Part shown: one piece after another, positions 57,138-61,304 of the stretch
Numbering within the stretch: position 1 is the first letter of the stretch
How the letters are laid out: each line of letters starts with the position of its first letter
Source of the DNA: Lactobacillus johnsonii
GTDB lineage: Bacteria > Bacillota > Bacilli > Lactobacillales > Lactobacillaceae
Direction: 5' to 3'
Length of the DNA: 64,000 bases
Assembly (NCBI RefSeq): GCF_013487865.1
Contig: NZ_CP047409.1
Span: forward strand, 248,001-312,000
Program-made: the position numbers and the translations under genes
The notes under the pieces: model-generated
Databases searched by the model: none
Told to the model about the DNA's origin: nothing
Seen by the model: the letters and a program-made list of their open reading frames with translations, nothing else

Positions 57138-58373
57138 ATGAATTATGGAGAAAAATCACCTGCACTTTGGGATGCAATTAAAAGTGAAGAGAAAAGACAA
57201 GAAGATACAATTGAATTAATTGCATCAGAAAATATTGTTTCCGATGCTGTCCGAGAAGCACAAGGATCTGTTCTCACCAATAAATACGCAGAAGGATATC
57301 CCGGGAAAAGATACTATGGTGGATGTCAATATATTGACAAGGTAGAACAATTGGCAATTGACTATGCCAAAAAATTATTTAATGCAGAATATGCAAATGT
57401 GCAGCCTCATTCTGGTTCACAGGCAAACATGACAGTTTATAATGCTTTGCTAAAGCCAGGAGATACTATTTTAGGGATGGGTATGGATGCTGGCGGTCAT
57501 CTTACGCATGGTTCAAAGGTTAATTTTTCAGGAAAAATTTTTAATTCTATTAGTTATGACTTAAATCCTGAAACTGAAGAATTGGATTTTGATCGAATTA
57601 GACAGCTTGCTATAGAGAAGAAGCCAAAATTAATTATTGCTGGTGCTTCTGCTTATAGCAGAATTATTGATTGGCAGAAGTTTCGTGAGATTGCGGACGA
57701 AGTTGGCGCCTACCTAATGGTTGATATGGCGCATATTGCAGGTTTAGTTGCAACGGGAGCACATCCGAGCCCAGTTCCTATAGCTGACGTTGTTACAACA
57801 ACTACACATAAAACTTTGCGTGGTCCGCGTGGAGGAATGATTCTATCTAACAATAAAGAATTAGGGAAGAAAATTGATTCGGCTCTCTTTCCAGGAACGC
57901 AAGGTGGACCACTAGAGCATGTTATTGCTGCAAAGGCACAAGCTTTTTATGAAGATTTACAGCCAGAATTTACTCAATACATTGATCAAGTAATTAAGAA
58001 TTCAAAAGCCATGGCTGAAGAATTTAAAAATAGCAAAAATATTCGCGTGGTTTCAGGTGGAACTGATAATCACTTGATGATTATTGATATTACCAAGACC
58101 GGCGTAACAGGAAAAGATGCCCAAAATTTACTAGACTCTGTAAATATTACGACTAACAAAGAGTCTATTCCTGGTGATAAGCGAAGCCCATTTATTACTA
58201 GTGGATTAAGAATTGGGACACCAGCAATAACTAGCCGAGGCTTTAAGGAATCCGATGCTAAAGAAGTTGCTAAAATAATTATTGAAGTTTTGGATAATCC
58301 TGAAGATGCAGGAGTACTAGCTCAGGCAAAAGAAAGAGTTAATGATTTAGTTACTAAATACCCTATCAAATAA
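57138..58373 (+). CDS. glyA: Serine hydroxymethyltransferase
   Basis: 411 residues, PLP enzyme interconverting serine and glycine with folate one-carbon transfer. The PLP lysine is in [36 protein letters not shown] and [11 protein letters not shown] are the other signature motifs. GGGAGG lies before the ATG. Single gene; the next promoter starts within 7 bases of its stop. Confidence 0.96.
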
Positions 58374-58379
58374 AAGCTA

Positions 58380-58408
58380 TTGACAGAAAAATATAAGCCA
58401 ATTACAAT
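58380..58408 (+). promoter_or_regulatory. Near-consensus promoter for the leader peptide and ABC operon
   Basis: -35 TTGACA (58380-58385), 17-base spacer, -10 TACAAT (58403-58408). This is the best match to the vegetative consensus that I saw in the window. Confidence 0.8.
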
Positions 58409-58438
58409 ATAATTAAATTTTTTAAGGAGTAGTTAATT

Positions 58439-58489
58439 ATGAATACACAAGCTAAGTTTATGAAAAATAATCGTTGGCAAGGCCAGTAA
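58439..58489 (+). CDS. Leader peptide with a single Trp codon
   Basis: Sixteen codons, MNTQAKFMKNNRWQGQ, with AAGGAG 9 bases before the ATG and TAA at 58487-58489. The Trp codon is the 13th, four codons before the stop. A hairpin begins three bases after the stop, and two terminators follow before the next gene. This is the layout of a translation-sensing attenuator. That Trp is the signal is inferred from this codon and from the TrpXYZ-like genes downstream. Confidence 0.65.
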   Translation: MNTQAKFMKNNRWQGQ

Positions 58490-58491
58490 AT

Positions 58492-58647
58492 CAGGTTGTT
58501 AAGCAAGATGCAACCTGAAAGACTCAGATTGTATCTGTGCTGGCTGTGTATTTATTGTGGTCTGCATGGAATAACATGCAGACCTTTTTCTTTTTGTGAT
58601 AAAAAAGTAACAGGAATCTGCATGTGAAGGTAGATTCCTGTTTTTTT
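58492..58647 (+). promoter_or_regulatory. Attenuator with tandem terminators and alternative pairings
   Basis: Hairpin 1: CAGGTTG (58492-58498) with CAACCTG (58511-58517). Terminator 1: GGTCTGCATG (58559) with CATGCAGACC (58575-58584), then TTTTTCTTTTT. Terminator 2: ACAGGAATCT (58610) with AGATTCCTGT (58632-58641), then T run. Two competing pairings are possible: CATGCAGA (58575-58582) with TCTGCATG (58617-58624) would open both terminators, and ATGC plus ACC in 58508-58515 can pair with the 5' arm of terminator 1. Stems are seen; switching is inferred. Confidence 0.7.
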
Positions 58648-58658
58648 GGAGAAAAATT

Positions 58659-59651
58659 ATGAAAAGAATGTATGGATTAATTGTAATTTTAGTAGCTTTT
58701 TTAACCATAGCTTTTTTTGGAGAAAATAAACAAAAAGAAGAAAATAATAAAGTTCCCCGAGTTGGTGTATTAACCCTTATGCGTCACCCAGCTCTTGATG
58801 AGATATATCGCGGCTTTCGAGATGAGCTGAAAGAAGAGGGCTACGTAAATGGGAAAAATATCAAAATTGAATATCAAAATGCAAATAATGATCAGAGTAA
58901 TTTACGTACGATGGCAATGAAACTAACTGATGAGCAGTCAAGAGTATTAGTTGGAATTACTACTCCAGCTGCCCAAGCATTGGCGAATACAACGAATAAG
59001 ATTCCAATAGTTTTAGGTGCTGTAACAAGTCCAAAAACTAGTGGGCTAGTAAAAAATGAAAAACATCCCGAAAAAAATATTACTGGGGTATCAGATGCTG
59101 CTCCAATTAAGCAACAATTAGATTTAATTAGGGAATTTTTACCTAATTTAAAAACTTTAGGGGTAATTTATACTTCGAGTGATTCTTCTGCAGTTAGTGG
59201 CTTTCACGAGATTGAGCGTGAATGTAAAAAGAGAAAAATAAATTTAAAATCTTTCTCAATTGCAAATAGTAACGATCTTAATCAAGTTTCAGAGCAGATG
59301 TTTAGTCAAGTAGATGCCGTCATTGTACCAACTGATAACACAATTGCTGGAGCGATGGAAACACTAGTTAAAAATGGTAATGCTGCTAAAAAGCCAATTT
59401 TCCCTGCTGCAGCAACTATGGTAAAACAGGGTGGTCTTGCAACTTATAGTGTTAATCAATATGAGTTAGGAAAAATGACTGGAAAGATGACTATTGAAAT
59501 TTTAAAGGGTAAAAAAGTTAGTTCTTTACCAATCGAAAGAGTGAAAAAGGGAGAACCGATCGTTAATTTAAAAGAAGCCAGAGAATTAAATCTTCAAGTG
59601 CCTCAACGATTTTTAGAAGAATGTCAGAAAAAAGGAGTTGTATATAGATGA
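58659..59651 (+). CDS. trpX: ABC importer substrate-binding protein (TrpX-like)
   Basis: 330 residues of the ABC_sub_bind family (PF04392-like), two-lobed binding protein. VGVLTLMRHPALDEIYRGF opens the first lobe and ITGVSDAAPIKQQLDLI lies at the hinge. The N terminus (MKRMYGLIVILVAFLTIAFFG) is a hydrophobic signal or anchor without a lipobox cysteine, unusual for this family in Gram-positives. It is the first gene after the attenuator; permease and ATPase genes overlap in sequence. Tryptophan as ligand is inferred from family assignments in streptococci and the leader Trp codon. Confidence 0.75.
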   Translation: MKRMYGLIVILVAFLTIAFFGENKQKEENNKVPRVGVLTLMRHPALDEIYRGFRDELKEEGYVNGKNIKIEYQNANNDQSNLRTMAMKLTDEQSRVLVGITTPAAQALANTTNKIPIVLGAVTSPKTSGLVKNEKHPEKNITGVSDAAPIKQQLDLIREFLPNLKTLGVIYTSSDSSAVSGFHEIERECKKRKINLKSFSIANSNDLNQVSEQMFSQVDAVIVPTDNTIAGAMETLVKNGNAAKKPIFPAAATMVKQGGLATYSVNQYELGKMTGKMTIEILKGKKVSSLPIERVKKGEPIVNLKEARELNLQVPQRFLEECQKKGVVYR

Positions 59652-60547
59652 ACTTGATCGTATCTGCTATTGGCCAGGGTTTGCTATGGGCTTTGCTTGG
59701 CTTAGGATTATATTTGACATTTAGAATTTTGAATTTTGCTGATATGACCGTAGAAGGAACCTTTCCATTAGGTGCAGCTGTTGCAGTAGCTAATATTTCA
59801 CACGGAATGTCTCCATACTTAGCTACTTTCTTAGCCCTTTTAGCTGGAATGGCAGCAGGTTTAGTAACGGGATTATTGTATACAAAAGGAAAAATTCCAA
59901 TTCTACTTGCTGGTATTTTAACAATGACGGCAATTTATTCTATTAATTTAAGAATTATGGGCGGCTCTAATATTTCACTGATTGGTAAGAAGACATTACT
60001 CAATAATGAATTTTTAGAAAAATTACCTCAATATTTTAACAGTGTTGTTTTAGGTATTGTAGTTGTAATAGTAATTACAGGAATCTTAATTTTCTTTTTA
60101 AATACAGATTTTGGTCAAGCTTTTATTGCTACCGGAGATAATCCTAGTATGGCAAAATCATTAGGAATTTATACAGACTTTATGGTAATTATAGGATTGA
60201 TGCTATCAAATGGAATAGTTGCCTTATGCGGAGCATTAATTGCGCAAAATAATGGTTATGCTGATATTAATATGGGAATTGGAACTATTGTTATTGCTTT
60301 AGCTTCAATTATTATTGGTGAAGTAGCTTTTGGAGAATTGACCTTAAATCAGCGTTTAGTAGCCGTAACTTTAGGTAGTATTATCTATCGTCTGATTTTG
60401 TTAGCTGTACTTCAGCTTGGATTTTCAGCTAATGACTTAAACTTGATCTCTTCTATTGTGTTAGCCCTCTGTATGATGCTCCCACAATTAGAAAAGTTTT
60501 TACATTTGAAAAAGCCAGTAGAAAGAGGTGTGAAAAAGCATGACTAA
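59648..60547 (+). CDS. trpY: ABC importer permease (TrpY-like)
   Basis: 299 residues with about eight to nine membrane segments, branched-chain/ribose-type permease family (BPD_transp_2). NFADMTVEGTFPLGAAVA near the N terminus and ALASIIIGEVAFG are typical of this subgroup. It overlaps trpX by 4 bases (ATGA) and trpZ by 8 bases, so the three proteins are made in balance. Confidence 0.78.
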   Translation: MNLIVSAIGQGLLWALLGLGLYLTFRILNFADMTVEGTFPLGAAVAVANISHGMSPYLATFLALLAGMAAGLVTGLLYTKGKIPILLAGILTMTAIYSINLRIMGGSNISLIGKKTLLNNEFLEKLPQYFNSVVLGIVVVIVITGILIFFLNTDFGQAFIATGDNPSMAKSLGIYTDFMVIIGLMLSNGIVALCGALIAQNNGYADINMGIGTIVIALASIIIGEVAFGELTLNQRLVAVTLGSIIYRLILLAVLQLGFSANDLNLISSIVLALCMMLPQLEKFLHLKKPVERGVKKHD

Positions 60548-61304
60548 GCCAATTCTAGAATTAAAAGATGTCAAAACAACTGTTAAAACAGCTGATGGTG
60601 AAATTGTTCCAATCTTAAAAGGAATTAATTTAGAAATTAGATCTGGAGATTTTATTACTATAATTGGAACAAATGGTGCCGGTAAATCAACACTTTTTAA
60701 TACGATTGCGGGCAGTTTAAAACCTGATAGTGGCATTCTTCGGCATAATGGGCAAGATATTACGAAAATGAGTGAAGAAAAGCGGACTCAGTTTATTGGA
60801 CGAGTTTTTCAAGATCCTAAGATGGGGACTGCTCCTAGAATGACCGTGGCAGAGAATTTACTCTTAGCAACCAAGCGGGGAAAGAGAAGATTTTTAAAGA
60901 TTAGAAGACTTAAGCAGAATTTACCTCGTTTTAAAAAACTAGCTGCGGTTATGAACAATGGTTTAGAAAACTGCCTGAATACATTTGTAGAGGGCTTATC
61001 TGGAGGCCAAAGACAAGCTTTGAGCTTCTTGATGGCTACAATAGAAAAGCCTGATATTTTGCTATTAGATGAGCATACAGCAGCTTTAGATCCTCATACT
61101 AGTGAAAATCTGCTAGCAGTAACTGATAAACAAATTAAAGAAAATAAATTAACTGCCTTAATGATTACGCATCATATGGAGGATGCTTTAAAATATGGAA
61201 ATCGTCTTTTGGTATTAAAGGATGGTCAAGTTAAAGCGGATATTAGTGAAGAAGAAAAAAAGAGTTTAAAAGTAAGTGATCTTTATAGCTATTTTGAAGA
61301 TTGA
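60540..61304 (+). CDS. trpZ: ABC importer ATPase (TrpZ-like)
   Basis: 254 residues. Walker A GTNGAGKST, Q-loop VFQDPKMGTA, signature LSGGQRQ, Walker B ILLLDEHTAALDP and switch His MITHHM are complete. The Walker B region reads DEHTAALD rather than the usual DEPTxxLD, a feature shared by this subgroup. It powers the TrpX/TrpY importer and ends the operon at a terminator. Confidence 0.82.
   Translation: MTKPILELKDVKTTVKTADGEIVPILKGINLEIRSGDFITIIGTNGAGKSTLFNTIAGSLKPDSGILRHNGQDITKMSEEKRTQFIGRVFQDPKMGTAPRMTVAENLLLATKRGKRRFLKIRRLKQNLPRFKKLAAVMNNGLENCLNTFVEGLSGGQRQALSFLMATIEKPDILLLDEHTAALDPHTSENLLAVTDKQIKENKLTALMITHHMEDALKYGNRLLVLKDGQVKADISEEEKKSLKVSDLYSYFED

Follow-up and report, generated by a model that had tools for sequence, protein, structure and literature searches.

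A predicted ribosome-read attenuator with two linked terminators upstream of the tryptophan importer operon trpXYZ of Lactobacillus johnsonii

Comparison of the leader of the trpXYZ operon in Lactobacillus johnsonii with its relatives indicates that it is very probably a ribosome-mediated transcription attenuator, read through the codons of a short leader peptide. Such an attenuator would be known in principle and unusual in design. Across 59 clusters of related leaders, covariation points to helices that exclude one another along a chain (1:2, 2:3, 3:4, 4:5, 5:6 and 6:7), in which 4:5 is a first terminator (T1) and 6:7 a second (T2), together with two locks, S0 and S1, on the leader's own start and end. 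We further consider it likely that a single old, codon-programmable seven-strand attenuator, its parity set by the ribosome, is spread across the Lactobacillales and sparsely beyond, that it has been re-addressed by exchange of leader codons, and that it unites two catalogued RNAs, the trpB motif (RF04312) and sRNA_2410 (RF02863).

The leader region and its operon

The window (the whole 64-kb stretch of DNA that was analysed) belongs to a genome consisting of a single contig of 1,995,616 bases. The leader lies on the forward strand between a serine hydroxymethyltransferase gene, which ends at 58373, upstream of the leader promoter, and trpX, which begins at 58659. The sigma-70-type promoter (TTGACA-17-TACAAT; 58380-58408, +), called near-consensus in the first-pass annotation, does match 11 of 12 consensus positions, and is followed by a Shine-Dalgarno sequence (AAGGAG; 58424-58429, +) and an open reading frame of 16 codons, MNTQAKFMKNNRWQGQ-stop (58439-58489, +; ATG at 58439, TAA at 58487-58489), whose sole Trp codon (TGG; 58475-58477, +) is the proposed regulatory codon. 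The 16-codon frame with one Trp codon near its stop, the hairpin after it and the two terminators listed by that annotation are all present. T1 (58559-58593 including its U tract, +) is a 10-bp hairpin (58559-58584) followed by TTTTTCTTTT, T2 (58609-58647 including its U tract, +) is a 13-bp hairpin (58609-58642) followed by TTTTT, and both are predicted intrinsic terminators that precede the structural gene trpX. A terminator scan of the region gave three terminator-like sites, one of them on the opposite strand, versus 0.7 +/- 0.9 in shuffled sequences, and the leader RNA folds with -85.2 kcal/mol versus -53.3 +/- 4.2 for shuffles (z -7.7; none of 200 equally good). By covariance-model search the element occurs once in the L. 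johnsonii genome.

The downstream gene trpX (58659-59651, +) encodes a tryptophan ABC importer substrate-binding protein (NF041285, 470 bits, cut-off 390), which bears out the earlier description of a TrpXYZ-like importer; the trpX of L. johnsonii, that of L. taiwanensis and those of two uncultured relatives are 95-96% identical to it, in a comparison from which records of the host genome itself may have been excluded. The trpY-like permease (59648-60547, +) is named from its place in the operon and from weak permease matches, all below cut-off, and the trpZ-like ATPase (60540-61304, +) from ABC ATPase matches, of which the 25 listed all lie below their cut-offs. A search for trpB gave no match in the host genome and was positive in 14/14 control genomes, which is consistent with reliance on Trp uptake.

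Scanning the whole 64-kb window against Rfam at the gathering threshold called no family at the leader element. Elsewhere the window holds a purine riboswitch (RF00167; 22168-22266, -; 56.8 bits) and, about 4.8 kb from each other, two matches to RF01492 (32293-32471, -, and 37094-37272, -), the family of rli28, which is known as a Listeria sRNA. In Streptococcus suis this operon is controlled by a Trp T-box that should likewise switch it on under Trp shortage, but there the RNA binds tRNA and no leader peptide takes part (PMC9382623). A T-box here would bind uncharged tRNA-Trp directly. Neither the window as a whole at the gathering threshold nor the relatives scanned (14, 20 and 6 sources) gave a T-box match, in agreement with the first reading, and the distance from promoter to trpX is about 245 nt versus the 461-nt T-box of S. 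suis (PMC9382623). Contradicted by the covariance-model scan, the T-box was rejected, and we put its chance close to nil.

Conservation and covariation of the leader element

The genus sample comprised 51 places in 75 genomes at which trpX lies above the curated cut-off, and every upstream region was read. A finder for an ATG with a Shine-Dalgarno sequence, a TGG and a stop at most six codons further on detected a leader in 50/51 regions (1.0/51 in shuffles, 0/51 on the reverse complement), and the remaining one, L027, also has a leader. In the family sample trpX is present in 301 of 330 genomes; the upstream regions read were those of 50 places (30 best hits and 20 picked by genus), of which 46 have the leader and two are without it, and in the other two the slice contains just the element's 3' part. 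Together with six named loci, a Trp leader was found at 103 of 107 trpX upstream regions in the Lactobacillaceae, the misses being L083 and L119 (3' part only in the slice) and L110 and L117 (no element), a count that is partly by construction because the finder demanded TGG (that used for the final set permitted a later stop and also demanded that C or TGG follow the Trp codon; at L111 the start was set manually). These 103 leaders, 100 of them distinct, form 59 clusters at 85% identity. T2 was found by script in 57/59 relatives; in the remaining two it can be recognised by eye in the sequence. Behind the T1 hairpin, fewer than five of the first eight bases are T in 16/57 relatives (5-of-8 rule), so that T2 is the only clear terminator in these relatives; T1 may be a relay whose U tract was acquired by some lineages or, alternatively, lost by others. 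At L079, L083 and L119 several hundred bases with more hairpin-like sequence separate T2 from trpX (some g15/g16 genomes, by eye).

The helices were assessed by a swap test, in which binding between the strand partners of one sequence was compared with binding between partners exchanged among sequences (59 representatives, 2000 permutations). S0, S1, 1:2, 2:3, 3:4 and 4:5 all bind their own partners better, with z from -9.1 to -16.6 and 0/2000 permutations in each case. Lock S0 joins the leader start region (58439-58449, +) to 58545-58555 (+), which flanks strand 3, as example pairings also illustrate, with -12.3 kcal/mol for own versus -6.9 for swapped partners (z -15.7, 0/2000, 59 sequences), and lock S1 joins the codons after Trp (58482-58486, +) to 58540-58544 (+; -12.1 versus -9.2 kcal/mol, z -10.1, 0/2000; both sides changed at 4/5 pairs). 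Strand 2 (58506-58518, +) can pair with strand 1 (58491-58499, +; -14.3 versus -8.1 kcal/mol, z -16.6, 0/2000; both sides changed at 7/8 counted pairs) or with strand 3 (58529-58544, +; -14.0 versus -9.4 kcal/mol, z -12.4, 0/2000; both sides changed at 7/10 pairs). Strand 3, the partner of strand 2 or of the leader end through S1, can also pair with strand 4, the 5' arm of T1 (58559-58570, +; -15.0 versus -11.7 kcal/mol, z -9.4, 0/2000; both sides changed at 3/7 pairs, with 90.5% of cells paired in the six-pair part). T1 itself is helix 4:5, formed with its 3' arm, strand 5 (58574-58584, +), and has both sides changed at 10/10 pairs (-15.2 versus -9.6 kcal/mol, z -13.0, 0/2000).

The first-pass annotation had noted that CATGCAGA of T1 is complementary to 58617-58624 in T2, and had proposed that one pairing couples the two terminators. 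Both statements hold: 58574-58582 of strand 5 pairs with 58617-58625 within strand 6, the 5' arm and loop of T2 (58609-58626, +), and this helix 5:6 is conserved (-8.5 versus -6.2 kcal/mol, z -9.3, 0/2000, 57 sequences). For 6:7, in which strand 7 (+) is the 3' arm of T2 and ends at 58642, the signal is stronger still (-20.3 versus -8.6 kcal/mol, z -23.2, 57 sequences), as expected because T2 had been picked as a hairpin. Conservation is lacking for another pairing that had been suggested, between 58508-58515 in strand 2 and strand 4, the T1 5' arm: exchanged partners bind at least as well as the original ones (z +1.2). The terminators sit at the even positions of the chain (4:5 and 6:7), and the odd positions oppose them.

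Kinship of the sequences inflates swap tests, which makes null controls important. In the six-helix set 10/12 controls were null (z -1.1 or weaker); the others were Lseg:s5 (z -3.7) and S05:s3 (z -8.0), the segments of which overlap the S0 partner. For the 5:6 and 6:7 test 4/6 controls were null; the other two, s4:s6 (z -1.7) and s4:s7 (z -2.8), tend in the direction of the real helices, as would be expected from complementarity along the chain. Pairs were also counted in alignment A1 (58 sequences, L115 excluded). The terminating structure (S1, 2:3 and 4:5) has 84.9% of cells paired and 21/25 pairs changed on both sides (n=58), and all five measures were reached in 0/500 shuffles. The read-through structure (1:2 and 3:4) has 86.0% of cells paired and 10/15 pairs changed on both sides (n=58), with three measures at 0/500 shuffles and the pair and type counts at 12/500 and 15/500. 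Control structures slid along the alignment had 20-48% of cells paired. Two exclusive structures that are both conserved are the hallmark of a switch. It is from such comparison that we take the helices, their exclusivity, the leader, its geometry and the match between leader codon and downstream gene.

Ribosome position and the leader codons

A ribosome with TGG in its A site protects the RNA to about +12. Counted from the first base of the Trp codon, the strand 1 helix starts at a median of W+14 (range 10-19; n=58, searched from W+8), and the leader stop lies at W+12 or W+15 in 52/58 elements (24 nt after Trp in L124, L125 and L127); with this footprint, stalling at Trp would leave strand 1 approximately free, and termination at the stop would bury it under the ribosome. 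Strand 1 begins approximately where the Trp-stalled ribosome ends, so starvation should give 1:2, 3:4, 5:6 and read-through, and because strand 1 would be covered once the ribosome stands at the stop, Trp sufficiency should give 2:3, T1 and T2.

In the mechanism that we propose, the first ribosome would translate the leader just behind RNA polymerase and, when charged tRNA-Trp is scarce, would stall with TGG in the A site, covering the 5' side of S1 and leaving strand 1 free. Helix 1:2 would then form, and the free strand 3 would pair with strand 4 as the latter emerges; 3:4 would block T1, the 3' arm of T1 would be available to strand 6, T2 would be blocked too, and the operon would be read. 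When Trp is sufficient the ribosome would cover strand 1 from the stop, 2:3 would form, and 4:5 and 6:7 would terminate. Once the ribosome has left, or if the leader is not translated at all, S1 and S0 would hold strand 3 and the leader start, making off the default. We infer the stalling, the folding order, the Trp dependence and the role of S0, and likewise that the read-through state, left undecided in the first-pass annotation, is the ribosome stalled at Trp. That the seven-strand chain is right in every detail, notably its kinetics and the role of S0, seems to us moderately likely.

Folding with the ribosome-covered bases blocked was carried out on 58 elements, a helix being counted if its value passed 0.5. 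Before strand 3 exists, 1:2 exceeds this value in 52/58 elements with the ribosome at Trp versus 17/58 with the ribosome at the stop. When all bases to W+12 are covered and the RNA is folded to strand 4, 1:2 forms in 46/58 and 3:4 in 50/58 (0.94 each in the window); with the ribosome at the stop and folding to strand 4, 2:3 forms in 58/58 (57 with everything upstream masked) and 1:2 in none. Without a ribosome 3:4 forms in 4/58. A single ribosome at Trp that leaves S0 free gives 3:4 above 0.5 in 16/58 and a value of about zero in the window, because S0 competes, and under single-ribosome masks a move from the stop to Trp raises 3:4 in 46/58 elements and fails to do so in 12. Under the stop mask with everything upstream covered, some 3:4 contact exceeds 0.5 in 41/58 (0.12 in the window) versus 50 at Trp; with the upstream region covered, 3:4 contact separates the ribosome states poorly. 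Making strands 1 and 2 unavailable gives 3:4 in 58/58, which is close to assuming the answer. Since single-ribosome folding falls short, a following ribosome would have to cover the start region, or the order of folding would decide; S1 is probably needed to complete the lock.

The trp attenuator of Escherichia coli has a leader with two adjacent Trp codons and a chain of four strands with the antiterminator at 2:3. The L. johnsonii element resembles it in the Trp-codon leader, in the choice of an exclusive hairpin by ribosome position and in the terminator before the genes, but has seven strands with the antiterminator at 3:4, couples two terminators, carries in most cases a single Trp codon and, unlike E. 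coli trp, has locks on the leader's own start and end. Leaders with one Trp codon number 54/59 and those with two 5/59, and a single codon is weak for classical stalling. The codon after Trp is CAA in 54/59 leaders, which the proposed mechanism does not account for. At the second codon after Trp seven amino acids occur, yet the third base is C in 59/59, which places the constraint on the RNA and not on the peptide. N-terminal residues vary freely, and the residue preceding W takes ten values among the 59 representatives, so that of the two features to be looked for in relatives the covarying stems were found and a conserved N-R-W peptide was not.

These patterns bear on a nascent-peptide sensor, for which TnaC-type sensing is the model: free Trp would hold the ribosome carrying the WQ-peptide at the stop, strand 1 would be covered and the terminators would form. 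Such a sensor would work in the same direction, off at high Trp, would need no more than one Trp codon and would fit the Q that follows W in 55/59 leaders, but the other residues are not conserved, W+2 included, and a Trp-specific arrest peptide does not predict that like RNA in relatives carries Tyr/Phe, His or Phe codons. We consider it unlikely. Peptide-mediated sensing, as put forward in the initial interpretation, is not supported, given the free N-terminal residues, the RNA-level constraint at W+2 and the relatives' codons, which follow the downstream gene; what survives of that interpretation is the leader-peptide attenuator with linked terminators.

The wider distribution of the element was followed with R1, a covariance model built from 58 elements and including the Trp codon. 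In the family it matched 150/181 genomes (32/38 genera), in the order 167/295 genomes (58/72 genera) and in the class 8/200 genomes: that of the host, six further genomes from the order and one match lacking a leader; L253, the R1 match outside the order, has no leader by script and was not used. At all 20 order-level R1 loci read the leader contains W, often as WQNWRR or WQSW, a count that, like those from RF02863 below, is partly by construction because both models include part of the leader, and a trpX-like gene follows at 19/20 (by eye). Among 20 further loci, L181 and L188 have W leaders before peptide-binding proteins (PF00496). The downstream-gene script gave no gene at L176, L179, L180, L190, L194 and L197; at L179, a second element copy in G118, group II intron-like sequence follows and not a transporter gene (by eye).

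At 19 trpX-paralogue loci of Lactobacillus there are 17 with Tyr/Phe leaders, none with W leaders and two with neither. Five loci (L059, L060, L063, L071 and L077) have two Tyr/Phe leaders each before tandem trpX-paralogue genes, the first YYYSYYR or YYLSYYR and the second YYFSYFR or FYFSYFR, suggesting from the codons twin importers under Tyr and Tyr/Phe control, respectively. In six copies within one genus (L182-L185, L189 and L192) CTGCGA replaces TGGCAA, giving RLRSR in five and RLRSQ in L192; these precede binding proteins of family 5 at L182 and family 3 at L183 (Pfam), and the other four resemble L183 (by eye). A translation-coupled attenuator in which any slowing of the ribosome in the leader leads to read-through, whatever the amino acid, would satisfy an RNA logic that needs just a ribosome paused upstream of strand 1, and would suit a single Trp codon as a weak sensor. 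Leader codons nevertheless fit the pathway in the groups identified, bar the RLRSR/RLRSQ copies, and we hold this loss of specificity to be very improbable.

The trpB motif, sRNA_2410 and a proposed wider family

The 3' half of the leader element is the trpB motif (RF04312). The window matches the full length of that model with 46.7 bits, below the gathering cut-off of 59, which was passed by 11/20 of the order-level and extra-copy loci scanned. The hairpin and terminator of the motif, with the antiterminator in the 3' side of the hairpin, are found here as 2:3, T1 and 3:4, so that the two hairpins of RF04312/SRC-39-1 are helix 2:3 and T1. As presented in the available part of its description, the motif has more than 900 representatives in Firmicutes and Fusobacteria, most often precedes an amino-acid-type ABC transporter, and comes without the leader ORF, strand 1, S0, S1, 5:6 and T2 (PMC11109978). 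It was called a strong riboswitch candidate in 2024, a classic attenuator being 'not ruled out' (PMC11109978).

The RF04312 model starts 3' of the leader, and its loci therefore give a less biased view of leaders. A search of 299 genomes of the class and 348 of the phylum gave 19 distinct loci at E 0.001, and a codon-free leader search found a leader at 16/19, with W at 13/19. This offsets the partly circular leader counts, and our estimate of the probability of codon-read attenuation is unchanged. The remaining leaders carry HHHH at L207, FYFSYF at L211 and FF..F at L215, loci that score 54.5, 38.2 and 52.1 bits against RF04312, all below cut-off. L207 precedes a hisZ-like gene (TIGR00443, 218 bits, cut-off 272; PF13393), L211 a trpX paralogue (NF041285, 269 bits, cut-off 390) and L215 a sodium symporter (PF00209). 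Matches at L212 (no leader) and at L216 and L217 (none convincing) were taken as chance. The HHHH locus resembles the His leader-peptide attenuators of Firmicutes, in which runs of His codons precede his genes (PMC2965389, 2010; PMC9413887, 2022); in the parts accessible, those papers make no link to the trpB motif, trpXYZ or Tyr/Phe leaders.

A riboswitch, with direct binding of Trp or of a related ligand by the RNA and no role for the ORF, has in its favour the published assignment of the trpB motif (PMC11109978) and several well conserved nucleotides. Many of these nucleotides, however, fall in overlapping pairings, and the leader ORF recovered at RF04312 loci by the codon-free search has codons that shift with the downstream pathway. 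Comparison thus favours a leader that is translated, and we regard a riboswitch as quite unlikely.

RF02863 (sRNA_2410) was matched at E 0.001 in 74/128 genomes of the order, 33 of them above cut-off. Tyr/Phe leaders are present at all 30 loci read (29 by script, L229 by eye), the model including the last leader codons. Gene models identify a trpX paralogue after L218 (345 bits, below 390), aroE after L224 and a DAHP synthase gene after L240, and the genes after the remaining loci were judged by eye. In 35 clusters 1:2, 2:3, 5:6 and 6:7 covary (each 0/2000), S1 and 3:4 covary weakly (1 and 2 of 2000), and 4:5, whose strands hardly vary, gives no covariation signal (269/2000); swap controls ranged from z +2.1 to -2.0. 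RF02863 thus has a like chain behind a leader ending YYFSYFR-stop or similar, and differs from the trpXYZ element in being filed as a small RNA, in having Tyr/Phe and not Trp codons, and in a T1 that often has no U tract (by eye). The RNA is known as a small RNA of Enterococcus faecium with two transcripts (PMC5593968), and premature termination at two places could explain them.

No paper linking the trpB motif, sRNA_2410 and a trpXYZ attenuator was found within the open-licence literature, and the design, together with the uniting of both RNAs with the attenuator, appears new within the literature searched. Two terminators yoked by parity and locks on the leader start would depart from the textbook arrangement. 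If leader codons have been exchanged as we propose, the same device would read Trp codons ahead of trpXYZ and of peptide importers, Tyr/Phe codons ahead of importers of the trpX-paralogue type, of aroE and of DAHP synthase, His codons ahead of a his gene, Phe codons ahead of a symporter and perhaps Arg or Leu codons elsewhere, and the codons would predict substrates of uncharacterised importers, such as Tyr for the YYYSYYR paralogues. The catalogued 'small RNA' sRNA_2410 would be reassigned, and a testable answer would be offered for an RNA class of more than 900 members left as a riboswitch candidate in 2024 (PMC11109978). Ribosome-read attenuation has long been reported mainly from Proteobacteria and Actinobacteria (PMC2965389), and our comparison suggests that it serves aromatic amino-acid supply in a large Gram-positive group.
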